Positions 1 to 18,342 of a stretch of DNA of 37,237 bases are shown one piece after another. The notes under the pieces were generated by a model. That model had not been told where the DNA came from. It saw only the letters and a list, made by a program, of their open reading frames with translations, and did not search any database. The DNA is taken from NCBI GenBank assembly GCA_007695305.1, contig REEA01000085.1:1-37237 (forward strand), read 5' to 3'. Numbering within the stretch: the stretch's first letter is position 1; every line of letters starts with the position of its first letter. The DNA comes from Bacteroidia bacterium. GTDB lineage: Bacteria; Bacteroidota; Bacteroidia; Bacteroidales; UBA7960. A program made the translations under genes and the position numbers.

Positions 1-159
1 TTAGCCAAAAACAGGCAGGTGCAGGGTAAAAACAGGGTGCGGTGATCCTGCATTCCATATATGATCATGGCTTTCGTACAGAAAAACATCAATACATCAA
101 TCATTCTTTATAATTTTGGTCAGATTTTTTTGTATCTTCACTGTAAGAAAAGGATTTCC
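1..159. other. Left-edge non-coding leader
   Basis: No gene can be supported here. One forward frame is open from base 1 for 14 codons and stops with TGA at 43-45, so it could be the tail of a gene entering from the left, but another frame also stops close by at TAA 27-29 and nothing distinguishes them. The rest is the upstream region of the first large gene. Confidence 0.5.
111..118 (+). promoter_or_regulatory. Candidate Bacteroidetes -7 box upstream of the first receiver/ATP-grasp gene
   Basis: TAATTTTG matches the Bacteroidetes -7 consensus TAnnTTTG and lies 41 nt before the chosen start codon at 160. No convincing TTTG -33 element is present 19-21 nt upstream, so this is only a half-match. 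Confidence 0.3.
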
Positions 160-3100
160 ATGACAAATAAATTTCATAAAGATTACACATTGAACGTTCC
201 GGGTTTTGGATCCGACATTGACCAGCCTTTGGCCATCAGCCAGGAAGAAATAAAAAAGCTCCTTGTTGAGAAAAAAGAGCGGTTGAAGGAATTGGGTGCT
301 ATCCACAGAACCACAGCCATTCTGAAAGAAGAAAAGCCCATTACAGAAATGCTGCAAAGCATTGTTAAGTTGTTGCCTGAAGCATGGCAGCATCCTGAGG
401 CAGCTATTGCCAGAATCAAATACGGGAAAGATTTTTTTTTATCCAAAGCCGGTTTCAGGGAAACAACATGGGTACAACGCAAAACCTTCGAAACAATTGA
501 CGGTACAGAAGGCAGTATAGAGGTTTTTTATCAGAAAGAGTTTCCTGAACAGGAGGAAGGCCCGTTTTTCATTGAGGAGCGTCATCTGATCAACAACTTA
601 AGCAGCTTGATTACCGGTCATTTAAACACACAGATCGGCAAGAACCTTCTAAAAGCCGCCGAAAAACAGAAAGAAGAAACGGAAGAGCAACGTCAGGAAC
701 GTGCTCATTCAGCCATGAGCAGGCATCTTCTGCAGAAGTTTTTAAACAAGCACAATTCAGACCGCGACATTTACCATGACCTGATGCAGTATAAGGTGCG
801 GGAAATCCTGCTGGTAGCCAACCTGTATGATGCCTACATCATAGAGCAGGAGGGCCGGTTTTTTGAGCAGGTAACCGGCGAATATTACCAGCTTAATTTA
901 TCCTCTGCCCCCCGCATTACCGGGGTGTCAACGCCCGAGGAGGCTTTGGAAAAGCTTCAGGAGAAACATTTTGATATGGTGATCGTGATGATGGGTGTGG
1001 AGAAGTCCATGCCCATTCAACTGAGCAGAATCATCAAGCAGATCTATCACAACATTCCGATATTCATGCTGCTGAACAACAATTCAGATATTGTATTGTT
1101 TGAGGATGGCAGCAAACCCATCACTTCCATCGACAAGGTTTTTGTATGGAATGGCGATTCAAAAGTGTTTCTCGCCATGGTAAAATACAATGAAGACCGG
1201 ATGAATGTGGAGAATGATATCCGGATCGGGATGGTTAGGGTTATCTTGCTGGTCGAAGACTCTGCGAAATATTATTCACGTTATCTGCCAATTTTGTATT
1301 CTATTGTGATTGAGCAAACCCAGCACCTCATCGAAGAAGTAAACACTGATGAGCTCTACAAACTGCTGAAGATGCGTGTAAGACCAAAAGTGCTGCTGGC
1401 ATCCAGTTATAATGAAGCCGTTAGCCTGTTCAATAAATATAAAGACAATCTACTTTGCCTGATATCTGATGTCAAATTTACAAAAGACGGGGAGCTGGAT
1501 TCCAAGGCAGGATTGAAACTGGTGAAATATTCCAGGGATATAATTCCCAACCTGCCAACAGTTTTGCAAAGTTCGGATCCGGAGAATGCTGAGGAGGCAT
1601 ATAAGCTGCAAGCCACATTCATCAATAAAAACTCGGAAACCCTGAAACAGGACCTGCAAAGCTTCATCAACTATTACCTGGGTTTTGGTCACTTTGTCTA
1701 TAAAGACGACGAAGGACGACGCGATCTGGCTGTGGCACGCTCCATGAAAGAGTTCCGCACCCATCTGAAATCCATTCCCGAAAAATCACTCATCTACCAT
1801 GCCAAAAAGGATCATTTCTCGCACTGGCTGATGGCCCGTGGTGAAATCCAGATTGCCAAGCGCATCAAACCATTGAAGGTTGAAGATTTTGAGTCGTCGG
1901 GAAGTTTACGCAACTACCTGATTGATGTGATCGAACAATGCATTCATGACAAGCAAAAAGGGAAGGTGATCAATTATGAAGAATCAGCCATTCTTGACGA
2001 CACCAATGTGGTCAGTATGTCGCCCGGATCATTGGGTGGCAAAGGACGCGGTTTGTCTTTCATCAATATGATCATCAATAACTTTAATTTTACTGAACTT
2101 GTTCCGGACATCCGGATAAAAACCCCGAAAACTTCCATCATAGGCACGGAGGAATTTGAACGCTTTGTTCATAACAATGATCTTTACAATAAAATATACG
2201 GAGAATCAGATTATGAGACGATAAAGAAGCTATTTTTATCGGGGCATCTTACCGTAACACTGAAAAAACGCCTGAAGACCTATTTGTCAGTCATTGACAA
2301 ACCACTGGCTATCCGGTCATCCAGTTTATTTGAAGATTCCCTGATGCAGCCTTTTGCAGGCATTTTCGACACCTTTCTGTTGCCCAACAACCACCCTGAC
2401 TTGAATACTCGCCTGGAGCAGGTGATGAGTGCCATCAAGCTGGTGTATGCATCCATTTTCTCCCCCACTGCCCAGGCCTATTTTAAAGCGGTAAATTATA
2501 AGATTGAAGAGGAGAAAATGGCCGTGATCATCCAGGAGGTGGTCGGTCATGAATACAACGGATGTTATTATCCCCACATAAGTGGTGTTGCGCAATCATA
2601 CAACTTCTATCCGTATTCATACATGAAACCCGATGAAGGCTTTGCATCCATTGCCCTCGGATTGGGTAAATATGTGGTTGAAGGGGAAAAAACATACCGC
2701 TTCTCCCCCATTCACCCTCAACTGGAAATGTACACCCCAAAGGAGCTGTTTAAAAATTCCCAGGTACATTATTATGCTGTTGATCTGACAAAAAAAGACC
2801 TCAATCTTTTGGATGGTGAAGATGCCGGACTCATAAAATTAGAGATCGATAAGGCGGAAAAACATGGCACACTGAAGCATTGCGCGTCTGTTTATGATTT
2901 TAACAGCGAGCGTACGATCCCCGGCATCACCGACCCCGGGCCCCGGGTGCTTAACTTCGCCAATATCCTGAAATATAATTACATACCACTCTCAAAGACC
3001 ATCGAGGTAATTCTTGATGTTATTTCAGAATCGATGGGTACCCCCATCGAGATTGAGTTTGCCATTGACCTGAACAAGGACAAGGAAGGACATGCTGCCT

Positions 3101-3717
3101 TTTATCTTTTGCAAATCAAGCCACTGATAAAAAACATCATCGAAACGGAAATCAATATCGACAAGATCAATAATGAGAAATTGCTGTTATATAGTGAGAA
3201 CGGAATGGGTAACGGACGCATCGAAGATATCTGCGATGTCATTTTTGTTGACATTGACCGTTTTGATAAGCTCAAAACGGAAAAAGTAAGGGATGAGATT
3301 GATAAGCTGAATTCCATGTTGGTAAAAGAAGACAGGAAATATATCCTGATTGGCCCCGGCCGCTGGGGTACACGCGACCGTTTTATCGGCATCCCTGTTA
3401 ACTGGTCACAGATATCCAATGCCCGCATTATTGTTGAAATGAGCATGGAAGACTTCCCATTGGATGCCTCTTTGGGTTCCCATTTCTTTCATAATGTAAT
3501 ATCCATGAATGTTGGCTATTTCTCGGTCAAACACGACGATCTCATTGATTATATCAACTGGGAAAAGTTGCATGCCGCGCCCTTGATAAATGAACTGAAG
3601 TATATCAAACATGTGCGTTTTGAAAAACCGCTTGAAGTAATCATGGACGGGAAAAAACGTCATTCTCTCATCTATTTTCATGACAATATATCAGATGAAG
3701 AATCAACAAATATGTAA
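160..3717 (+). CDS. Receiver-domain protein with PPDK-type ATP-grasp domain and N-terminal GAF-like sensor (PEP synthase-like)
   Basis: This 1185-aa protein starts at ATG 160, chosen because AAGGA-like sequence lies just upstream at 149-154 and the preceding 33 codons of open frame look non-coding. Domains in order: a GAF-like sensor region (about 40-185) of the kind seen in Bacteroidetes histidine kinases; a degenerate receiver-like segment (about 215-340) beginning EILLVANLYDAY; a better receiver (about 360-510) with VILLVEDS and a candidate phospho-acceptor in LISDVKF; then a PPDK N-terminal ATP-grasp region with LGGKGRGLSF (about 624) and LAIRSSSLFEDS (about 715), and a C-terminal block with IGPGRWGTRD (about 1063). 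The phosphohistidine swivel domain and the PEP-binding TIM barrel of real PEP synthase or PPDK are not visible, so automatic annotation as PEP synthase would mislead. The paralogous next gene begins 61 nt downstream, suggesting an operon. Its substrate is unknown. Confidence 0.75.
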   Translation: MTNKFHKDYTLNVPGFGSDIDQPLAISQEEIKKLLVEKKERLKELGAIHRTTAILKEEKPITEMLQSIVKLLPEAWQHPEAAIARIKYGKDFFLSKAGFRETTWVQRKTFETIDGTEGSIEVFYQKEFPEQEEGPFFIEERHLINNLSSLITGHLNTQIGKNLLKAAEKQKEETEEQRQERAHSAMSRHLLQKFLNKHNSDRDIYHDLMQYKVREILLVANLYDAYIIEQEGRFFEQVTGEYYQLNLSSAPRITGVSTPEEALEKLQEKHFDMVIVMMGVEKSMPIQLSRIIKQIYHNIPIFMLLNNNSDIVLFEDGSKPITSIDKVFVWNGDSKVFLAMVKYNEDRMNVENDIRIGMVRVILLVEDSAKYYSRYLPILYSIVIEQTQHLIEEVNTDELYKLLKMRVRPKVLLASSYNEAVSLFNKYKDNLLCLISDVKFTKDGELDSKAGLKLVKYSRDIIPNLPTVLQSSDPENAEEAYKLQATFINKNSETLKQDLQSFINYYLGFGHFVYKDDEGRRDLAVARSMKEFRTHLKSIPEKSLIYHAKKDHFSHWLMARGEIQIAKRIKPLKVEDFESSGSLRNYLIDVIEQCIHDKQKGKVINYEESAILDDTNVVSMSPGSLGGKGRGLSFINMIINNFNFTELVPDIRIKTPKTSIIGTEEFERFVHNNDLYNKIYGESDYETIKKLFLSGHLTVTLKKRLKTYLSVIDKPLAIRSSSLFEDSLMQPFAGIFDTFLLPNNHPDLNTRLEQVMSAIKLVYASIFSPTAQAYFKAVNYKIEEEKMAVIIQEVVGHEYNGCYYPHISGVAQSYNFYPYSYMKPDEGFASIALGLGKYVVEGEKTYRFSPIHPQLEMYTPKELFKNSQVHYYAVDLTKKDLNLLDGEDAGLIKLEIDKAEKHGTLKHCASVYDFNSERTIPGITDPGPRVLNFANILKYNYIPLSKTIEVILDVISESMGTPIEIEFAIDLNKDKEGHAAFYLLQIKPLIKNIIETEINIDKINNEKLLLYSENGMGNGRIEDICDVIFVDIDRFDKLKTEKVRDEIDKLNSMLVKEDRKYILIGPGRWGTRDRFIGIPVNWSQISNARIIVEMSMEDFPLDASLGSHFFHNVISMNVGYFSVKHDDLIDYINWEKLHAAPLINELKYIKHVRFEKPLEVIMDGKKRHSLIYFHDNISDEESTNM

Positions 3718-3778: not shown

Positions 3779-6763
3779 ATGCATGCCATAACCAAATATA
3801 AATACGATGAAAGGTATTCGACGGATACCTATGACTTCAAAGAGATCACCTATCAGGATCTGATGCAGAAGCGCATCATCAATGTACTGTTGATATGCAG
3901 TAACTATGACGCTTTTATGCTGGAGGAGGACGGCAGGATTAACGAGAAGATTTTTCTTGAATACACCTCGAAAAACTTAAGATATCCCCCGCAGTTCACC
4001 CAGGCCAGTTCATCGGAGGATGCATTTAAGCTATTGGAGGAAAAAGATTTTGACCTTGTAATCACTATGCTGAACGTGGGCAAGATCGATTGTTTTGAAA
4101 TGGCAAAGCAGGTAAAAAAAAGACATCCGAAAATACCCATCGTGGTATTGACACATTTCAGCCGTGAAGTTTCCATAAAGCTCAAAAATGAAGATCTGAG
4201 TTCAATTGATTATGTTTTTTGCTGGCTTGGTAACGCGGGTTTGTTGCTCGCCATCATTAAATTGCTGGAAGACAGAATGAACGCCGATTATGACATTGAG
4301 TATGTCGGGGTTCAGGGCATTTTGCTGGTGGAAGATTCCATCAGGTATTATTCCTCTTATCTGCCCACCATTTACAAGGTTATTTTTGATCAGACCAATG
4401 AACTGATGACCGAGGGTTTGAATGAGCACCGGAAAACATTGCGTATGCGCGCCAGGCCCAAAATATTGCTTGCCAAAAGCTATGATGAGGCCATCAGCCT
4501 GTACAACAAGTATCAGGAAAATCTGCTTGGGATCATCTCTGATATCAGTTATGCCAGAGGCGGTGTTCGTGATGACCATGCAGGTATTAAGCTGGCCAAG
4601 CATATCCGAAAAAAGAACAGCCAGATCCCCATTCTTCTCCAGTCATCCGAAAAATGGGATGCGACCATCAACAGGGACATTGAAGTAAGTTTCATTGACA
4701 AGTATTCAAAAACGCTGCTCATTGAGCTGAAGCACTACATCAAGGAGAATTATGGCTTTGGTGATTTTGTTTTTAAAGACCCTGCAACGGGCATGGAGCT
4801 TAAACGAGCCAATAACCTGCACTCATTGCAGGTCAAGATTGCCAATGCCGATCCCAAGGTGCTTGAGTATCATGTTACCAACAACCATTTTTCCAGGTGG
4901 TTAAAAGCCAGAGCCTTGTTTTCCATCGCCAACATTTTTGCCCAAAAGAGCCGCGATGATTTTGACCACATCGAAGAGGTACGCAGCTATCTGATCGACA
5001 CCATAGCCAATTACCGGCGTACCAAAGGCCGGGGTATCATTGCCAGTCATCTTGATGAATATGCTGTTTTCACAAGGCTGGGCGACGGTCAGCTGGGAGG
5101 CAAAGCCAGGGGGCTTGCCTTCATTGATTCGGTTATCAATCGTTATAAGATCATGAATCACTGGGATGGCGTCAACGTTTCCATTCCGCGTACAGTGGTA
5201 CTCACAACCGATCTTTTTGATGAATTCATGGAAGATAACGATTTGTATGACTTTGCACTGTCAGACGTCACCGACGAAGAAGTGCTTGACCGTTTCGTGC
5301 ACAGCAAAACACCCTCGCGCATGCGATCATTCATTCGCGAAATCATTGATTTTTTCAAGTCGCCCCTGGCCATACGGTCTTCCAGTTTGCTCGAAGACAG
5401 TCATTACCAGCCATTTGCCGGTGTGTATTCAACCTACATGATACCTAACAATCATGCCGACAGGCAGGTACGCATGCAGCAAATTGACCAGGCCATCAAA
5501 AGTGTGTATGCTTCCGTCTTTTTCTCAGAAAGCAAGGCATATATTGAAGCAACATCCAACGTGATTGATGAAGAGAAAATGGCCGTTGTTATACAGGAAG
5601 TTTCAGGGAGGCAATATGGCAATATGTTTTATCCAACCATTTCAGGTGTTGCCCGGTCTGTGAATTTTTATCCCATAGACCCTGAAAAGTATGAGGATGG
5701 TGTGGCCAATATCGCTTTCGGGTTGGGAAAGATTATTGTTGACGGGGGACTTTCTCTGCGTTTTTCGCCAAAATACCCGGAAAAGGCATTGCAATTGTCC
5801 AACACCGAAATCGCTTTGCGCGACACACAGAAAGAATTTTACAGTCTCGACATGGATCCGGAAAAGTTTCAGCCGGCCGTTGACGAGACTCTGAACCTGC
5901 ATTATATCCGGATTCGTCAGCTCAAAGGCCATTCACCGCTGAAACACGTTGTTTCCACCTATGATTATGAAGATCAAATCATCAGGGAAGGTTTGTATGA
6001 TAAAGGCATACGCCTGATAAGCTTTGCCAATGTTTTGCGGCATAAATCGTTTCCGCTGGCTGAGATTTTACAGGAATTGCTTCACATCGGCCAAAAGGAG
6101 ATGAACAACCAGGTTGAGATCGAGTTTGCCGTCAACATGGATGTGCCAAAGGGTGAAAAAATGCAGTTCCACTTTTTGCAGATCAGACCGATTGTGGAGA
6201 CCCAGGAGAAAAACCAGGTGGATGTCAATTTGTGCAAACCAAAGGATACCATCATCACCAGCCGGAATGCCCTTGGTAATGGCATCATCGAAAATGTCCG
6301 GGATTTTGTATATGTGAAGCCTGATGTGTTCGATGCCGCCAAAACAAAAGAGATTGCTGATATCATCAACAAAATAAACAACGACATAAAAGGAAACGGA
6401 AGCAATTATGTTCTGGTTGGTCCCGGCAGATGGGGGTCGAGTGACCCCTGGCTTGGTGTACCGGTGAAATGGGCACAAATCTCTGCCGCCAGGCTAATTG
6501 TTGAATCAGGGCTGAAAGACTTCCAGATCGACCCAAGTCAGGGCACCCACTTTTTCCAGAACCTGACTTCTTTCAGTGTAGGGTATTTCACCATCAACCC
6601 ATTTGCCAAAGACGGTTTTTATGATGTGGATTTCCTGAATAAACAGGATGCAGTGTATGAAGACGAATTTGTACGTCACATTCGTTTTAAAAGTCCCATT
6701 GTGATCAAAATCAACGGCAGCAAGAAAATTGGCGTTGTTTTAAAACCTGAGCCTGAAGTCTGA
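3779..6763 (+). CDS. Receiver-domain protein with PPDK-type ATP-grasp domain (tandem paralogue)
   Basis: This 994-aa protein is a clear paralogue of the preceding gene without its GAF-like N-terminal region. It has a receiver-like segment (about 30-155, INVLLICSNYDAF), a second receiver (about 175-330, GILLVEDSIRYYSSYLP, candidate phospho-Asp in IISDISY), LGGKARGLAF (about 437), the ATP-grasp signature LAIRSSSLLEDSHYQPFAG (about 531) and VLVGPGRWGSSD (about 879). The motif GTHFF (His924) matches GSHFF (His1108) in the first protein. As there, the PEP-utilising mobile domain and TIM barrel are absent. Proteins of this type are usually labelled pyruvate phosphate dikinase or PEP synthase in Bacteroidetes genomes; the architecture supports ATP binding coupled to phosphorelay input, but not PEP synthesis. 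ATG 3779 is the first in-frame start and fits the paralogue alignment. Confidence 0.75.
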   Translation: MHAITKYKYDERYSTDTYDFKEITYQDLMQKRIINVLLICSNYDAFMLEEDGRINEKIFLEYTSKNLRYPPQFTQASSSEDAFKLLEEKDFDLVITMLNVGKIDCFEMAKQVKKRHPKIPIVVLTHFSREVSIKLKNEDLSSIDYVFCWLGNAGLLLAIIKLLEDRMNADYDIEYVGVQGILLVEDSIRYYSSYLPTIYKVIFDQTNELMTEGLNEHRKTLRMRARPKILLAKSYDEAISLYNKYQENLLGIISDISYARGGVRDDHAGIKLAKHIRKKNSQIPILLQSSEKWDATINRDIEVSFIDKYSKTLLIELKHYIKENYGFGDFVFKDPATGMELKRANNLHSLQVKIANADPKVLEYHVTNNHFSRWLKARALFSIANIFAQKSRDDFDHIEEVRSYLIDTIANYRRTKGRGIIASHLDEYAVFTRLGDGQLGGKARGLAFIDSVINRYKIMNHWDGVNVSIPRTVVLTTDLFDEFMEDNDLYDFALSDVTDEEVLDRFVHSKTPSRMRSFIREIIDFFKSPLAIRSSSLLEDSHYQPFAGVYSTYMIPNNHADRQVRMQQIDQAIKSVYASVFFSESKAYIEATSNVIDEEKMAVVIQEVSGRQYGNMFYPTISGVARSVNFYPIDPEKYEDGVANIAFGLGKIIVDGGLSLRFSPKYPEKALQLSNTEIALRDTQKEFYSLDMDPEKFQPAVDETLNLHYIRIRQLKGHSPLKHVVSTYDYEDQIIREGLYDKGIRLISFANVLRHKSFPLAEILQELLHIGQKEMNNQVEIEFAVNMDVPKGEKMQFHFLQIRPIVETQEKNQVDVNLCKPKDTIITSRNALGNGIIENVRDFVYVKPDVFDAAKTKEIADIINKINNDIKGNGSNYVLVGPGRWGSSDPWLGVPVKWAQISAARLIVESGLKDFQIDPSQGTHFFQNLTSFSVGYFTINPFAKDGFYDVDFLNKQDAVYEDEFVRHIRFKSPIVIKINGSKKIGVVLKPEPEV

Positions 6764-11737: not shown

Positions 11738-12259
11738 ATGCGCATTGAACGTATCAAACCCAGGAAAAATGAGGAAGTTGTGTCCGAAGCAATTGATCTC
11801 TCGCTACTTGAGCCTCTATTAGAAAAGTACAAAAACCGCAAAGGAAATCTGATTCCGCTTTTACAGGGTACGCAAGACATTTACGGCTACCTTCCTATGT
11901 CAGCCTTTGCCCGCATCCATGAAGCTACCGGGCTGGAGCTGAACGAAATGTATGGTGTTGCCACTTTTTATGCTCAATTCCGGCTTGTACCGGCAGGAAA
12001 ACACATTGTTAAGATGTGTCATGGTACCGCCTGCCATGTGCAAAGCGTTACGGCCATCACCGATGAGATATTGGATACCCTTGAGATCAAAGACGGTGAA
12101 ACCACCAAAGACGGTATATTCACCGTTGAAACGGTGGCATGCCTTGGATGCTGCTCGCTGGCCCCGGTGATGATGATTGGGGATGAAACTTACGGCAAAC
12201 TCACTCCCAAACAGGCTGTGAAAATCATCCGTGAAATTCGAAGAAACGAGGTAAATTAA
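11738..12259 (+). CDS. NuoE-like NAD(P)H oxidoreductase [2Fe-2S] subunit
   Basis: The 173-aa protein belongs to the 24-kDa NuoE/HydC/FdsG family of thioredoxin-like ferredoxins that sit beside the FMN subunit in complex I, bifurcating hydrogenases and NAD-linked formate dehydrogenases. The cluster ligands are visible: Cys94 and Cys99 in CHGTACH, then Cys135 and Cys139 in CLGCC. The family hallmarks IYGYLP and GVATFYAQF are also present. It is the first gene of a co-directional set with a NuoF-like protein (93 nt downstream), a GltD/molybdopterin fusion and a ferritin-like protein. No membrane subunits of complex I are nearby, so it most likely belongs to a soluble complex. The 174-nt upstream gap has an imperfect -7-like TATTTTTC at 11701 but no good -33 element. 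Confidence 0.92.
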   Translation: MRIERIKPRKNEEVVSEAIDLSLLEPLLEKYKNRKGNLIPLLQGTQDIYGYLPMSAFARIHEATGLELNEMYGVATFYAQFRLVPAGKHIVKMCHGTACHVQSVTAITDEILDTLEIKDGETTKDGIFTVETVACLGCCSLAPVMMIGDETYGKLTPKQAVKIIREIRRNEVN

Positions 12260-12352
12260 AAAACAGTTTTGGGCAATGGATATAACAGGGTCCGAATCTT
12301 AGCCACTTTATTCCGGATATACCGAACAAACATCAACAATAAAGAAACAAAC

Positions 12353-14131
12353 ATGGAAAAAACGAAGGTAATTGTAGGTTTGGGAAGCTGTGGCATTGCA
12401 GCCGGGGCATCCAAAACATACAATGAATTTCAGAGGATCATACAAACCGACAGGCTGGATGTGGAACTAAAAAAGACCAGCTGTATAGGTATGTGTTACA
12501 GGGAGCCCCTGGTGGAGATCATTGACGACAGCGGCACCTACCTGTACGGCGAAGTGGATCTTCCGCGCGTGGATGAGATCATCGACAAGCATATTAAAAA
12601 ATTTACGCCCATTCCGGAATACATCGTACAGTCGGACAAATACCCGTCGAAGGACCAGGAGTTTTTTGACAGGCAGGTAAAGATCAGTCTGCGGAACTGC
12701 GGACACATTGATCCCGAGTCTATCGAAGAATATGAAGCCCGCGATGGTTACCGGGCCATTCGCAAGATTGCCAACGGGAACATTAGTCCCGACAGGGTGA
12801 TCCAGGATGTGCTGGATTCGGGTCTGCGCGGCCGCGGGGGTGGTGGATTTCCCACAGGCATGAAATGGAAGTTTGCCAAAAATAACCAATCGGAACAAAA
12901 ATACGTGATTTGCAATGCCGATGAGGGAGACCCGGGGGCATTCATGGACAGATCCATACTGGAAGGGGATCCGCACGGTGTGTTGGAGGGGATGATCATT
13001 TGCGGGTATGCCATTGGAGCATCAGAAGGTTACATTTATTGTCGTGCAGAATACCCATTGGCCATCAAACGTTTGAACATTGCCATCTCACAGGCCAGGG
13101 AAAGGGGATATCTGGGCAAGAACGTATTTGGCATCAATGGTTTTGACTTCGACATCATCATCAAAGAAGGAGCCGGGGCATTTGTTTGCGGTGAAGAAAC
13201 CGCCCTGATTGCTTCGATCGAGGGCATGCGGGGCATGCCACGCAGACGTCCCCCCTTCCCTGCCGAGTCGGGCCTCTGGAAAAGTCCGACCAACATCAAC
13301 AATGTGGAAACTTTCATCAACATCCCATGGATCATCCATAACGGACCCCAAGCCTATGCGCAATACGGAACGGAAAAGAGCAAGGGTACCAAGGTATTTG
13401 CACTTACCGGGAAGATCAATCACGGTGGTTTGGTGGAAGTACCTATGGGTATCACCATTAAAGATGTGATTTACAAGCTGGGGGGTGGCATCACCGGCGA
13501 TAAAAAGTTTAAAGCCGTCCAATTGGGCGGACCGTCAGGGGGTTGCATTCCCGAACATCTGAGCCACACCCAGGTCGATTATGATTCAGTGAACGCCACA
13601 GGGGCAATCATGGGGTCAGGCGGCATGGTCGTGATGGATGAAACCACCTGCGTGGTGGACATTGCCAGATTCTTTCTGGATTTTACCCAGAAAGAGAGCT
13701 GCGGAAAGTGCACTTTTTGTCGCCTTGGCACCAAGAGAATGCTGGAGATCCTTACGCGTATAACAGAGGGTGAAGGCCGGGAAGGAGACATCGAAAAACT
13801 GGAAGAGCTGGCGGAAACCATTAAAGACAGCTCACTGTGCGGCCTGGGCCAAACAGCACCAAACCCTGTTCTGACCACCATCAAGTATTTCCGTGACGAG
13901 TATGAAGCGCATATCCGGGATCACAAGTGTCCGGCGCTTAGCTGCAAAAAGCTGCTAACCTACACCGTTATTGATGAGAAATGCACCGGTTGTATGGCTT
14001 GTATTAAGGGTTGTCCGGTTGATGCCATCGAAGGAGAAAAGAAGCAGGTGCACAAAATCCTGCAAGATGTGTGTATCCAGTGCGGTGTTTGTTTTACCAG
14101 ATGTAAATTTGAAGCCATCAGGGTTTCCTGA
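12353..14131 (+). CDS. NuoF-like FMN/NADH-binding subunit with C-terminal ferredoxin
   Basis: This 592-aa flavoprotein starts at ATG 12353; the upstream in-frame ATG at 12269 would add 28 residues that do not fit the family. Order of domains: a thioredoxin-like 2Fe-2S domain (1-85), the NuoF core with FMN/NADH motifs GRGGGGFPTGMKW (about 159) and GAGAFVCGEETAL (about 265), the SLBB and 4Fe-4S region ESCGKCTFCRLG (about 447) with the fourth Cys in SLCGLGQ, and a two-cluster ferredoxin at the C-terminus (CTGCMACIKGCP and CIQCGVCFTRC). This is the layout of HndC/HydB-type subunits of soluble NAD-linked hydrogenases and formate dehydrogenases. The N-terminal domain shows only Cys13 in its first half and SCIGMC in its second, so its cluster may have fewer ligands than usual. 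It would oxidise or reduce NADH and pass electrons to the neighbouring fusion protein. Confidence 0.93.
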   Translation: MEKTKVIVGLGSCGIAAGASKTYNEFQRIIQTDRLDVELKKTSCIGMCYREPLVEIIDDSGTYLYGEVDLPRVDEIIDKHIKKFTPIPEYIVQSDKYPSKDQEFFDRQVKISLRNCGHIDPESIEEYEARDGYRAIRKIANGNISPDRVIQDVLDSGLRGRGGGGFPTGMKWKFAKNNQSEQKYVICNADEGDPGAFMDRSILEGDPHGVLEGMIICGYAIGASEGYIYCRAEYPLAIKRLNIAISQARERGYLGKNVFGINGFDFDIIIKEGAGAFVCGEETALIASIEGMRGMPRRRPPFPAESGLWKSPTNINNVETFINIPWIIHNGPQAYAQYGTEKSKGTKVFALTGKINHGGLVEVPMGITIKDVIYKLGGGITGDKKFKAVQLGGPSGGCIPEHLSHTQVDYDSVNATGAIMGSGGMVVMDETTCVVDIARFFLDFTQKESCGKCTFCRLGTKRMLEILTRITEGEGREGDIEKLEELAETIKDSSLCGLGQTAPNPVLTTIKYFRDEYEAHIRDHKCPALSCKKLLTYTVIDEKCTGCMACIKGCPVDAIEGEKKQVHKILQDVCIQCGVCFTRCKFEAIRVS

Positions 14132-14181: not shown

Positions 14182-17100
14182 ATGAGCAAACTGAATATCA
14201 TTATCAACGGAAGAATTGTACGGGGAATACGCGGCGAAACCATCCTTGAGATGTCGCGCAGGTTGGGTATTGAAATCCCCACACTATGCAATGACGACCG
14301 TTTGGAACCTTTTTCGTCCTGTTATTTGTGTGTTGTTGAGGTTGATGGCATGCGCGGCTTACAGCCTGCCTGTTCAACGAAGATTACGGAGGGTATGCGT
14401 ATTGCAACAGATAACGACCGCGTGCATAAATCGCGCAGGTTTGCGCTGGAGTTGCTGGTCAGCAATCACTATGCAGACTGTGCCCCGCCTTGCCGCGAGG
14501 AGTGTCCGGCGGGAGTTGATGTACAAGGTTACATTTCTATGATCAGCAAGGGCAAGCACCGTGAGGCTGTGGAGCTGATCAAGGAAACCAATCCGCTGCC
14601 GGCTATCTGCGGACGAGTCTGCGTAAGACCCTGTGAGCTGGTATGTCGCAGAAACCTCCTGGAAGACATTGGCGTTGGCATTGACTACCTGAAGCGTTAC
14701 ACTTCAGACATTGACATGTTTTCGGAAAACCGTTTCATGCCGGAGGTTAAACCTTCGACAGGGAAAAAAGTGGCCATCATCGGTGCCGGACCCGGAGGCC
14801 TTACGGCAGCCTATTTCCTGGCTAAAGAAGGGCACCATGCTGAAATATTTGAAGCCAGTCCGCACGCCGGTGGTATGCTACGCTATGGCATCCCACCTTA
14901 CCGCCTTCCCAATGAAGTGATTGAAAAAGAGATTGAGGGGATAACCGGCCTGGGGGCAAAAATTCACTATAACCGTCGTTTGGGCGACAATCTCAGCTAT
15001 AAAGATCTCAAAGAAGGATTTGATGCCACCATCCTGGCCATTGGTTCCCAAAAAGGGACAGGGATTGGATGCGAAAACGATGACGCTGAGAATATATTCA
15101 GTGGCATCGATTTTTTGAGAAATATGGAGATGACAGGTCAAAAATATGACTTTTCCGGTAAAAAGGTAGCGGTGATCGGTGGCGGTAATACTGCGATGGA
15201 CTGCTGCCGTACGGCCAAGCGCTGCGGTGCGGAGGAGGTAACTGTTATCTATCGACGGACAGAAAAAGAAATGCCGGCCAACCCCATTGAGATCCACGAA
15301 TCGAAGCTGGAAGGGATCAATTATATGTTTTTGACGGCCCCGGCGAGGGTTAACAAAGATGAAGAGGGTAAGCTGAAGTCTCTGACCTGTGTGCGCATGG
15401 AGCTGGGAGAGCCTGACGCGTCGGGTCGCCGCAGACCGGTAAAAATAGATGGTTCTGAGTTTGATGTTGAGCTTGATTTTATCCTTGCTGCCATCGGGCA
15501 AAAAACGGTGGTGAATTTCATGGAAGACATCAGTCAACATGCTGAAAAACCGCTCAAGCTAAACCGATGGGGAGACATAGACGCCGCTCCCGGCACATTA
15601 CAGACATCTATCGAGAACGTCTTTGCCTGTGGTGACGGCGTTACCGGACCGGCAACCCTGATAGAGGCTATCGCACAGGGCAGGATTGCTGCCCAAAGCG
15701 CAGACAAATGGCTGCGTGGTGAGAAGGTTAGCCCCCCTCCCACCGAGTTTCTCAGCAAAAAAGACAATTTTGAAAAACAGCAGAAACAGGATTATGCAGG
15801 ATATTTTGCTGATCAGATCCGCGAAGAAATGCCCACGCTTGATCCGGCAAAAAGGGACAATTTTGACGAGGTTGAGCTAGGCTATACCGATGAAGCAGCC
15901 ATTAAGGAAACGCTGCGATGCCTGGAATGCGGCTGTTCGGAGTTATATACCTGCGACCTGAAAAAATATGCCAACGACTACCAGGCTGAGCAAAAGCGAT
16001 TTGGCGGAGATTATAAAAAACACGAGGTCAATTTTGACCATCCTTTTGTGGAGATAGACAACAACAAATGCATCTTATGCTCCCGCTGCATCCGTATCTG
16101 CGCTGAGGTAAACGGTGCCAATGCTTTGGGACTTGTAAACAGGGGATTTGAAACCTATGTGGCACCGAGCATGGATGGCCCCTTGCAGGAAACAAACTGC
16201 GAATCATGCGGCCTGTGTATTGATACCTGTCCTACAGGTGCCATCACCGAAAACGTAGCTTTTAAAACCATGCCGGTTGAAATGGAAACAGTGTCAACCG
16301 TTTGCAATTATTGTTCGGTTGGCTGCGAAATCAATATCCATCACAAAACAGGATTTGCAGCCCGGGTAACCGGAAAAAAAGGCCTCATCAACCATGATGG
16401 AAGCATTTGCAGGTATGCCAAATTCGGATACCATTATCTGAATGACAAAAACAGGATTACCTCCCCCATGAAAAAGGTGAACGGTGAATTTGTGCCCATC
16501 ACTTTTGAGGAGGCTTATGAATTGATCATAGACAAAATCAGGCATACCAATGCCGGCGAAAACGGTTTTTATATCGGGGCCAGGCTGACCAACGAGGAGA
16601 TGTACCTGATTCAGAAGCTGGCCAGGGCCGGCGTAAAGACCAATAATGTAAGCAGCTTTCACTATATGGACAGGGGATCAGGTTACTTTGCCAACAGCAT
16701 GCACCACGTTCCCATCAGCCAGCTAAAACTGGCAAACAAGGTGTATATCCTTGACAGTGAAGTAAACTATGAAAATGCCGTACCCGGTTATTACATGATC
16801 AACAACCGGTTCCGCAGTGGCACACCGCTTGAGCTGGTCACAACAAGCGACAGCAATCGCATGGCACACAAAGCCGACACGGTCACAAAGGTTCACTCAA
16901 CGTATTATTTTGTGAAATCGGTGATCCATTATATGCTTTCCAACAACATGGAAAACCGGATCTATATTGACGATCATTGCCATGATTTTGAGACGTATCG
17001 CGAACAGGTACTGGCGGAGAGTTTTGAATCCCTGGCAGAAAAATCAGGATGCACGCCGGAGGTGATTGCCAAATTTGCCCGGGAGTTCAACAACGAAGCA

Positions 17101-17874
17101 CATGCGGTAGTCATGTATTCTGAAAAGAACCTATCGGCCAACACCTGTCATGAATTGCGCAATCTTTGTTTCATCTCAGGCAAGGCAGGCAAAACTGCCA
17201 GCGGTCTCTTCTCCATGAAAGAAAAAAACAATTCACAAGGCCTGTTCGACATGGGGGCATGTGCGGCCATTGCACCGGGTGGTGTTATGCTAAAGGATGG
17301 GGAGGTCATCGACGCAATGAAGGCACTGTGGAAGCAGGATGCGCTGCCGGAAGAAGTGAGCCAGGATCAATGGGCATTGCTGCAATCAGGTTCTATAAAA
17401 AATTGCTTCATTTTTGGTGAAGATCCCCTGGGTTGTGCGGTGAACAAAACCGAAATAATGGCAGCATTAGACAAGATCAGCTTTATGGTTGTTCAGGATC
17501 TGTTCATGACCGAAACCGCCGCTGCAGCTGATCTGATTCTCCCCGGCTCGCTCCACATGGAGACAGGTGGCAGCTTCACCAATATGCAGAAATTTATACA
17601 GCAATTCGAACCTGTTATGCAAAGTGCCATTCAGCATACGTCGTTTGATCAGCTTGTCCATTTGCATAAGCAGCTTGGTATTGAGTCAGATTATGCATCA
17701 CCGGCAGATGTAATGCTCGAAGTAGCCTCGGCCATGGATCAACAGGGTAAAACCAACGGTCATTACCAGATGGTTTATACTGATCTGGACAATCCGAAGC
17801 GCCGTTTCGGTCATGGTTGCGATTACCTGGTGAAAAGATTTGACAACCATTGGGAAGAAGTATTTTCAACATAA
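14182..17874 (+). CDS. Fusion of 2Fe-2S, GltD-like FAD/NADPH oxidoreductase, ferredoxin and molybdopterin-oxidoreductase-like module
   Basis: A 1230-aa multi-cofactor protein. Residues 1-80 form a NuoG-type 2Fe-2S ferredoxin (IPTLCNDD...SSCYLCVVEV). Residues about 96-190 carry the paired 4Fe-4S cysteine motifs of GltD/NfnB (CAPPCREECP, CGRVCVRPCELVC). The FAD site VAIIGAGPGGLTAAYF is near 197, the NADPH site VAVIGGGNTAMDCC near 330, and FACGDGVTGPATLIEA near 480. A two-cluster ferredoxin follows (CILCSRCIRIC, CESCGLCIDTCP, about 630-690), then a FdhA/NuoG-like module from about 705 with the 4Fe-4S motif CNYCSVGC plus Cys in SICRYAKFG. At the formate-dehydrogenase Sec/Cys position (after TNNV) it has Asp830 followed by Arg. 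The region after FTNMQKFIQQF is short, with no visible molydopterin-binding C-terminal domain. It probably receives NADPH and exchanges electrons with the NuoEF-like subunits. Formate dehydrogenase activity is doubtful. Confidence 0.85.
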   Translation: MSKLNIIINGRIVRGIRGETILEMSRRLGIEIPTLCNDDRLEPFSSCYLCVVEVDGMRGLQPACSTKITEGMRIATDNDRVHKSRRFALELLVSNHYADCAPPCREECPAGVDVQGYISMISKGKHREAVELIKETNPLPAICGRVCVRPCELVCRRNLLEDIGVGIDYLKRYTSDIDMFSENRFMPEVKPSTGKKVAIIGAGPGGLTAAYFLAKEGHHAEIFEASPHAGGMLRYGIPPYRLPNEVIEKEIEGITGLGAKIHYNRRLGDNLSYKDLKEGFDATILAIGSQKGTGIGCENDDAENIFSGIDFLRNMEMTGQKYDFSGKKVAVIGGGNTAMDCCRTAKRCGAEEVTVIYRRTEKEMPANPIEIHESKLEGINYMFLTAPARVNKDEEGKLKSLTCVRMELGEPDASGRRRPVKIDGSEFDVELDFILAAIGQKTVVNFMEDISQHAEKPLKLNRWGDIDAAPGTLQTSIENVFACGDGVTGPATLIEAIAQGRIAAQSADKWLRGEKVSPPPTEFLSKKDNFEKQQKQDYAGYFADQIREEMPTLDPAKRDNFDEVELGYTDEAAIKETLRCLECGCSELYTCDLKKYANDYQAEQKRFGGDYKKHEVNFDHPFVEIDNNKCILCSRCIRICAEVNGANALGLVNRGFETYVAPSMDGPLQETNCESCGLCIDTCPTGAITENVAFKTMPVEMETVSTVCNYCSVGCEINIHHKTGFAARVTGKKGLINHDGSICRYAKFGYHYLNDKNRITSPMKKVNGEFVPITFEEAYELIIDKIRHTNAGENGFYIGARLTNEEMYLIQKLARAGVKTNNVSSFHYMDRGSGYFANSMHHVPISQLKLANKVYILDSEVNYENAVPGYYMINNRFRSGTPLELVTTSDSNRMAHKADTVTKVHSTYYFVKSVIHYMLSNNMENRIYIDDHCHDFETYREQVLAESFESLAEKSGCTPEVIAKFAREFNNEAHAVVMYSEKNLSANTCHELRNLCFISGKAGKTASGLFSMKEKNNSQGLFDMGACAAIAPGGVMLKDGEVIDAMKALWKQDALPEEVSQDQWALLQSGSIKNCFIFGEDPLGCAVNKTEIMAALDKISFMVVQDLFMTETAAAADLILPGSLHMETGGSFTNMQKFIQQFEPVMQSAIQHTSFDQLVHLHKQLGIESDYASPADVMLEVASAMDQQGKTNGHYQMVYTDLDNPKRRFGHGCDYLVKRFDNHWEEVFST

Positions 17875-17886
17875 AGAGATATAAAC

Positions 17887-18342
17887 ATGAAATCATTTGA
17901 AACCGTTAATGATGTTTTGGATTTTGCCATGCAATCCGAACAGGAGGCCGTCGATTTTTACACCTCCCTTGCAGATAAAATGCAGAATGAGGAAATGAAA
18001 TCTGTGTTTCTTCAGTTTGCGCAGGAAGAGGTGGGACATAAGGCCCGTTTGCAAAAGATCAAGGATGAAGGCATTTTCGATATGCCCGTTGAAATGGTGC
18101 GCGATCTGAAAATTTCCGATTACGTTGTACGCACAAAAGCGACACCTGATATGGAATACCAGGATGCACTGATCCTTGCCATGAAACGTGAGAAAGCAGC
18201 ATTCAAGCTTTACACAAAGCTTTCAGAAAGTTGCGAACATCCGGGCCTGAAAAATGTATTCCAGGCACTTGCCGTGGAGGAATCAAAGCACAAACTCCGC
18301 TTTGAGCTGGAATATGATGACTATGTAATGAGGGAGAATTAG
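17887..18342 (+). CDS. Ferritin-like diiron protein (rubrerythrin-type, no rubredoxin domain)
   Basis: The 151-aa protein is a four-helix ferritin-like domain. The diiron ligand pattern is visible: Glu20 in SEQEAVDFY, EEVGH with Glu48 and His51, REKAAFKLY with Glu102, and EESKH with Glu132 and His135. Family members include rubrerythrin catalytic domains (peroxide reduction) and small ferritin-like proteins. The usual C-terminal rubredoxin domain is missing, so electrons would have to come from a partner. It begins only 12 nt after the stop of the GltD/molybdopterin fusion, so it is very likely co-translated with the NAD(P)H oxidoreductase, which could be that donor; this link is an inference. 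Confidence 0.88.
   Translation: MKSFETVNDVLDFAMQSEQEAVDFYTSLADKMQNEEMKSVFLQFAQEEVGHKARLQKIKDEGIFDMPVEMVRDLKISDYVVRTKATPDMEYQDALILAMKREKAAFKLYTKLSESCEHPGLKNVFQALAVEESKHKLRFELEYDDYVMREN

Follow-up and report, generated by a model that had tools for sequence, protein, structure and literature searches.

A stnABC locus of a Bacteroidales genome encodes a StnC subunit whose formate dehydrogenase-like domain is in all likelihood a cofactor-free relic

Two described complexes stand closest to the locus reported here, StnABC of Sporomusa ovata and the electron-bifurcating Nfn-ABC of Caldicellulosiruptor saccharolyticus, a member of a phylum other than the host's. In the excerpts of PMC10482914, S. 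ovata StnC is presented as a GltD-NuoG fusion with a catalytically inactive FdhF-like part, and clusters C1 and C2 are placed off the electron path. Deletion of the FdhF-like domain is reported to leave no active complex, and exchange of C1 or C2 cysteines to leave no tetramer (PMC10482914). Formate oxidation by S. ovata StnABC was assayed and reportedly not detected (Kremp 2020, PMC7483475). The cofactor list for S. ovata StnC, as excerpted from these papers (PMC10482914/PMC7483475), mentions no pterin, and the excerpts give Val or Ile at the position of S. ovata Cys114 in two homologues and an Fe content of roughly 42 per complex for S. ovata variants. The Nfn-Bfu class (BfuB clade 53) is reported from Bacteroidetes too, and 13 Bfu sequences with rubrerythrins are noted in the same survey (Schut 2022, PMC9304861). 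Literature searches found no related paper under the entry code 9BOV and no paper linking StnABC with the term Bacteroid.

The window (the whole stretch of DNA analysed, 37,237 nucleotides) contains genes for all three subunits of such a complex, followed by a gene for a ferritin-like protein. The features are as follows.

11738 to 12259, forward strand: stnA (bfuC), NuoE-like subunit with a thioredoxin-like [2Fe-2S] domain (PF01257, E 2e-47; 9bov_C, 1.2e-57; 8oh5_A, 8.7e-52)
12269 to 14131, forward strand: stnB (bfuB), NuoF-like FMN/NAD subunit with an N-terminal extension and a C-terminal 2x[4Fe-4S] domain (8oh5_B, E 2.9e-264)
14182 to 17874, forward strand: stnC (Nfn-bfuA), 1230 aa, with 2Fe-2S, GltD-like, dicluster and FdhF-like domains (phmmer against the PDB, Pfam)
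14764 to 15681, forward strand: GltD/NfnB-like FAD and NADP(H) domain of StnC (Pyr_redox_2, residues 195-500), containing Arg241
16042 to 16248, forward strand: Nqo3-like [4Fe-4S] dicluster domain of StnC, with 8/8 Cys invariant in 62 homologues
16303 to 17874, forward strand: FdhF-like domain of StnC, with the Fe4S4 site and PF00384 to residue 1149, without PF01568
16669 to 16674, forward strand: Asp830-Arg831, aligned where formate dehydrogenases carry Sec/Cys-His
17887 to 18342, forward strand: rubrerythrin/ferritin-like protein (PF02915, E 4.2e-18), 12 bases after stnC

Judged by its sequence, the product of 14182-17874 is a full-length StnC (Nfn-BfuA), a subunit of an electron-bifurcating transhydrogenase and an ordinary member of the described family. 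Its Pfam domains run in the order 2Fe-2S (residues 3-78), Fer4_20 (100-178), Pyr_redox_2 (195-500), Nqo3-type dicluster (621-689), Molybdop_Fe4S4 (PF04879, 701-754) and Molybdopterin (PF00384, 758-1149), with all four StnC domain types carried on a single chain. The first-pass annotation was confined to the FdhF-like domain, the last 43% of the gene, and left aside residues 1-690, which comprise the 2Fe-2S, GltD/NfnB-like FAD-NADP and dicluster domains. Its label of a formate-dehydrogenase-like module misleads, since the protein taken as a whole is the StnC of an electron-bifurcating transhydrogenase and not a separate formate dehydrogenase. The top full-length PDB matches (phmmer) are 9bov_A (E 2.1e-244) and 8oh5_C (E 3.7e-243), from entries titled as the electron-bifurcating Nfn-ABC of C. 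saccharolyticus and the StnABC of S. ovata, respectively. Lys171, just N-terminal of the GltD-like domain, occupies the position of S. ovata K170, a strictly conserved residue near cluster C7, and Arg241 that of R239. The motif HxxxCxxxCxxxCP named in PMC7483475 is found in the protein. The CxxCxC motif is likewise found, with five residues before the last Cys compared with the four printed in that paper; S. ovata StnC as aligned from the PDB also has five.

StnB carries PF01512, PF10589 and PF14697 and aligns with 8oh5_B over residues 33-618. Residue 2 of 8oh5_B falls on residue 33 of the stnB open reading frame, and translation probably initiates at the 12353 ATG. The order StnA-StnB-StnC recurs in all 34 related loci with enough upstream DNA, the other 11 of the 45 being too short. 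The ferritin-like gene lies directly downstream of stnC in 25 of these 45 loci and further off in 2; it is missing where there is room for it in 5, and 13 are uninformative, giving 25/32 informative loci with the gene directly after stnC. Pfam found no rubredoxin domain in the ferritin-like protein of 17887-18342. Such a conserved partner could take electrons from the complex, for example for peroxide removal; we regard the wider reading that includes this step as doubtful. PADLOC returned only a subtilase match among six neighbours, and the neighbour genes scanned included no Nuo membrane subunit. Elsewhere in the window, adjacent large proteins at 61-3717 and 3779-6763 each combine a PEP-synthase-type ATP-binding domain (PF01326) with a receiver-domain match, weak in the first, and Pfam found no further catalytic domain in either.

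The site that would hold the metal in a formate dehydrogenase is altered. The first-pass annotation, aligning by eye, had put Asp830 where Sec or Cys binds the metal and Arg where the catalytic His sits, and both placements hold: codon 16669-16671 is GAC, and Asp830 and Arg831 fall on Sec140 and His141 of E. coli FdhF in a gap-free alignment (StnC, TNNVSSFHYMDRGSG; E. coli FdhF, TNNVDCCARV(Sec)HGPS; the genome's own Cys formate dehydrogenase, NNNVDYCTRLCHAST). The suspected loss of the C-terminal molybdopterin domain is borne out by a Pfam scan, which finds no PF01568 in the FdhF-like domain and detects it in the genome's other formate dehydrogenase (E 8.3e-30). The 4Fe-4S motif is kept, as had been noted, with Fe4S4 cysteines 708, 711, 715 and 743. 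The end of the protein, given earlier as about 105 residues past FTNMQKF, is in fact 92 residues past it. The position of FdhF Lys44 is occupied by Tyr745. The marks of a molybdopterin formate dehydrogenase that were checked are missing: there is no Sec/Cys ligand, no catalytic His, no Lys44 and no PF01568.

Conservation was surveyed in an alignment of 62 distinct homologues of at least 1000 aa, out of 74 collected. The ligand position is Gly in 23, Asp in 14, Glu in 8, Asn and Phe in 5 each, Thr and Leu in 2 each, and His, Ser and Gln in 1 each, with Cys in none; Gly is found even within the genus, in L100 (= G413). At the position of Arg831, Arg (39) is followed by Gln (13), Lys (3), Ser (2), Tyr (2) and one each of Met, Phe and Thr. 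The FdhF Lys44 position is Tyr in 32, Phe in 10, Lys in 8, Leu in 5, Gln in 3, Arg in 3 and Met in 1, and all eight bearers of Lys are without a Cys ligand. The FdhF Arg333 position is Lys in 52 and Arg in 10. Outside the FdhF-like domain, the cysteines at 36-64, 100-108, 147-155, 580-591 and 630-683 and His96 are invariant (62/62), as are Lys171 and Arg241 (62/62 each), while C143 is Cys in 54 and Ile in 8. Every homologue carries Val, Ala or Ile where S. ovata has Cys114. Column identity averages 0.76 across the GltD part, 0.81 across the dicluster domain and 0.57 across the PF00384 part. Such a pattern would be expected if a structural domain with relaxed constraint sat on an otherwise constrained enzyme. 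The retention of Arg831 in 39/62, together with Lys or Arg at the Arg333 position in 62/62, may reflect residual constraint on the FdhF-like domain.

An AlphaFold2 model of residues 691-1230, built from a 33-row alignment, has a mean pLDDT of 91.2 and a pTM of 0.91. Foldseek and VIA-align pair it with formate dehydrogenases, with 9bov_A (Z 37.6, rmsd 2.7 over 475 aligned positions) and 8oh5_C (Z 32.9, rmsd 3.1 over 462 aligned positions) and, at a lower rank, with complex I NuoG. True formate dehydrogenases score no lower than the StnC entries (TM about 0.8 versus 0.74-0.78; Z 38.0 versus 37.6 and 32.9), so the predicted fold of the domain is still very like that of a formate dehydrogenase. 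Going by the model, fold by itself does not separate an active domain from an inactive one.

The four cysteines of the FdhF-type cluster (708, 711, 715 and 743) are all lost in 6/62 homologues (L031, L033, L034, L036, L040 and L090), and L088 lacks the first of them only. From its place, this cluster would be the C1 cluster of S. ovata. On a quick tree without bootstrap the six require 2 changes and a single origin is possible, so we do not claim independent losses; with L088 included there are 3 changes, at least 2 of them on well supported branches. These counts are soft because L036, L040 and L090 are long branches. The cluster-less homologues count against the picture drawn from S. ovata, in which mutants in the C1 or C2 cysteines are reported to form no tetramer (PMC10482914). 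They also provide a direct test of any role of that cluster.

A NuoE-NuoF-FdhA-like operon that encodes a Cys formate dehydrogenase is present elsewhere in the same genome (G000 contig C3, L055:332-4916). Searches of the genome's own bin detected no MoaA, MoaC or MoeA, though MoaA is present in a sister genome, G414. With a bin 94% complete, a sister that has MoaA and an operon sited on a contig of 9.8 kb, this may reflect a gap or a stray contig. The C-terminal domain of MoaA is present in 15 and absent in 5 of the 20 StnC-bearing genomes with a completeness of 90% or more, the genome's own bin being among the 5; these 5 hint, by what is a weak argument, that StnC needs no pterin. Across 395 genomes of the phylum there are 87 matches to StnC at E 1e-100 or better. 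Ten extend over most of the protein (the source genome included), 75 belong to a family (f19) aligning only as far as about residue 640-706, and 2 cover only about residues 98-595. The short f19 homologues, common in the phylum, have open frames of 656-842 aa; loci L107-L110 (G063, G010, G060 and G106) are StnC-like, with open frames of 658-821 aa, and are without the FdhF-like domain. No StnA or StnB match was found near short f19 homologues at the four loci examined, so they are no proof that StnC works without its FdhF-like domain.

With high confidence we read stnA-stnB-stnC as encoding a transhydrogenase in which the FdhF-like domain is a cofactor-free relic. The sequence analysis itself establishes membership of the family, the order of the genes and the disappearance of the ligand, of catalytic residues and of the C-terminal domain. 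Activity, electron path and scaffold role are carried over from S. ovata. By that analogy the complex would most likely reduce NAD+ and ferredoxin at the expense of NADPH, or run in the opposite direction. Electron bifurcation would take place at the FMN in StnB, and a chain of Fe-S clusters would carry electrons between StnB and the NADP(H)/FAD of StnC's GltD-like domain. The C-terminal domain, derived from a molybdopterin enzyme, would no longer bind pterin or Mo/W and would serve assembly and stability outside the electron path. An inactive FdhF-like domain in the StnC subunit already explains what was observed at the Asp-Arg site. An annotation trap is also settled: names such as those in the PDB present these proteins as formate dehydrogenase or molybdopterin oxidoreductase, although the domain most likely survives as a structural relic.

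The first-pass annotation had left two readings standing, a NuoG-like cofactor-free scaffold and an Asp-ligated enzyme. In the latter, the FdhF-like domain would be an active Mo/W-bis-pterin enzyme resembling the NarG type and would supply the bifurcating complex with a third substrate. In its favour are the intact Fe4S4 site, the occurrence of Asp (14/62) and Glu (8/62) at the ligand position, a separate molybdoenzyme encoded in the genome and the presence of MoaA in most relatives. Against this, the conserved Asp ligand of NarG-type enzymes has no counterpart in the family, where Gly is commonest, even in the same genus, and Phe (5) and Leu (2) also occur; PF01568 is missing, FdhF Lys44 and His141 are replaced by Tyr and Arg, and the MoaA, MoaC and MoeA genes did not turn up in the bin, though the sister has MoaA. 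S. ovata StnC, with Asp at the same place, is reported to show no formate activity and, in the excerpted cofactor list, no pterin. We consider an Asp-ligated enzyme very unlikely. The scaffold reading is in all likelihood right, given the inactivity and assembly role reported in S. ovata and a ligand position that varies freely among the 62 homologues.

Two further explanations were rejected, as was the Asp-ligated enzyme, on the evidence against each. The matches to PF00384 and TIGR01591 could point to a bifurcating formate dehydrogenase (Fdh-Bfu) whose active Sec or Cys disappeared through sequencing error or recent mutation. We give this hardly any credence, since no homologue has Cys at the site, the codon is GAC and not TGA, the TIGR01591 score is 285 against a cut-off of 666, and the genome has its own Cys-bearing NuoE-NuoF-FdhA-like operon elsewhere. 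The chance that the gene is instead NuoG of a complex I Nuo module is practically negligible, despite a NuoE-NuoF-NuoG-like gene order and a TIGR01973 match: a GltD domain is inserted between the 2Fe-2S and dicluster domains, StnB has an extra 4Fe-4S domain, Nuo membrane subunits are absent from the neighbours scanned, and the best NuoG reaches 153 bits where StnC-type PDB entries reach 813-817 (phmmer).

Compared with known systems, the locus shares with StnABC of S. ovata (8oh5/8oh9; PMC7483475, PMC10482914) the three subunits, gene order, domain order, Fe-S motifs, counterparts of K170 and R239, and an FdhF-like domain with Asp aligned at the site. It differs in a Bacteroidales host (by relatives), Asp-Arg in place of Asp-Gly, Val in place of Cys114, 58 additional residues in StnC and the ferritin-like gene that follows stnC. 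The Nfn-ABC of C. saccharolyticus (9bov/9bp5) is the best full-length match, and its Asp-Arg is aligned after a 4-residue insertion. With the Nfn-Bfu class, as described in PMC9304861, it has in common the BfuBC core and an NADP-reducing, FAD-containing domain on BfuA; the T. sibiricus member of that class is given there as about 200 residues smaller than that of S. ovata and without the A4 cluster cysteines. E. coli FdhF and complex I NuoG share the fold of the C-terminal domain with StnC. FdhF retains the Sec140, His141 and Lys44 that StnC lacks, whereas NuoG, as generally understood and by its PDB match ranges, is without the GltD domain that StnC possesses.
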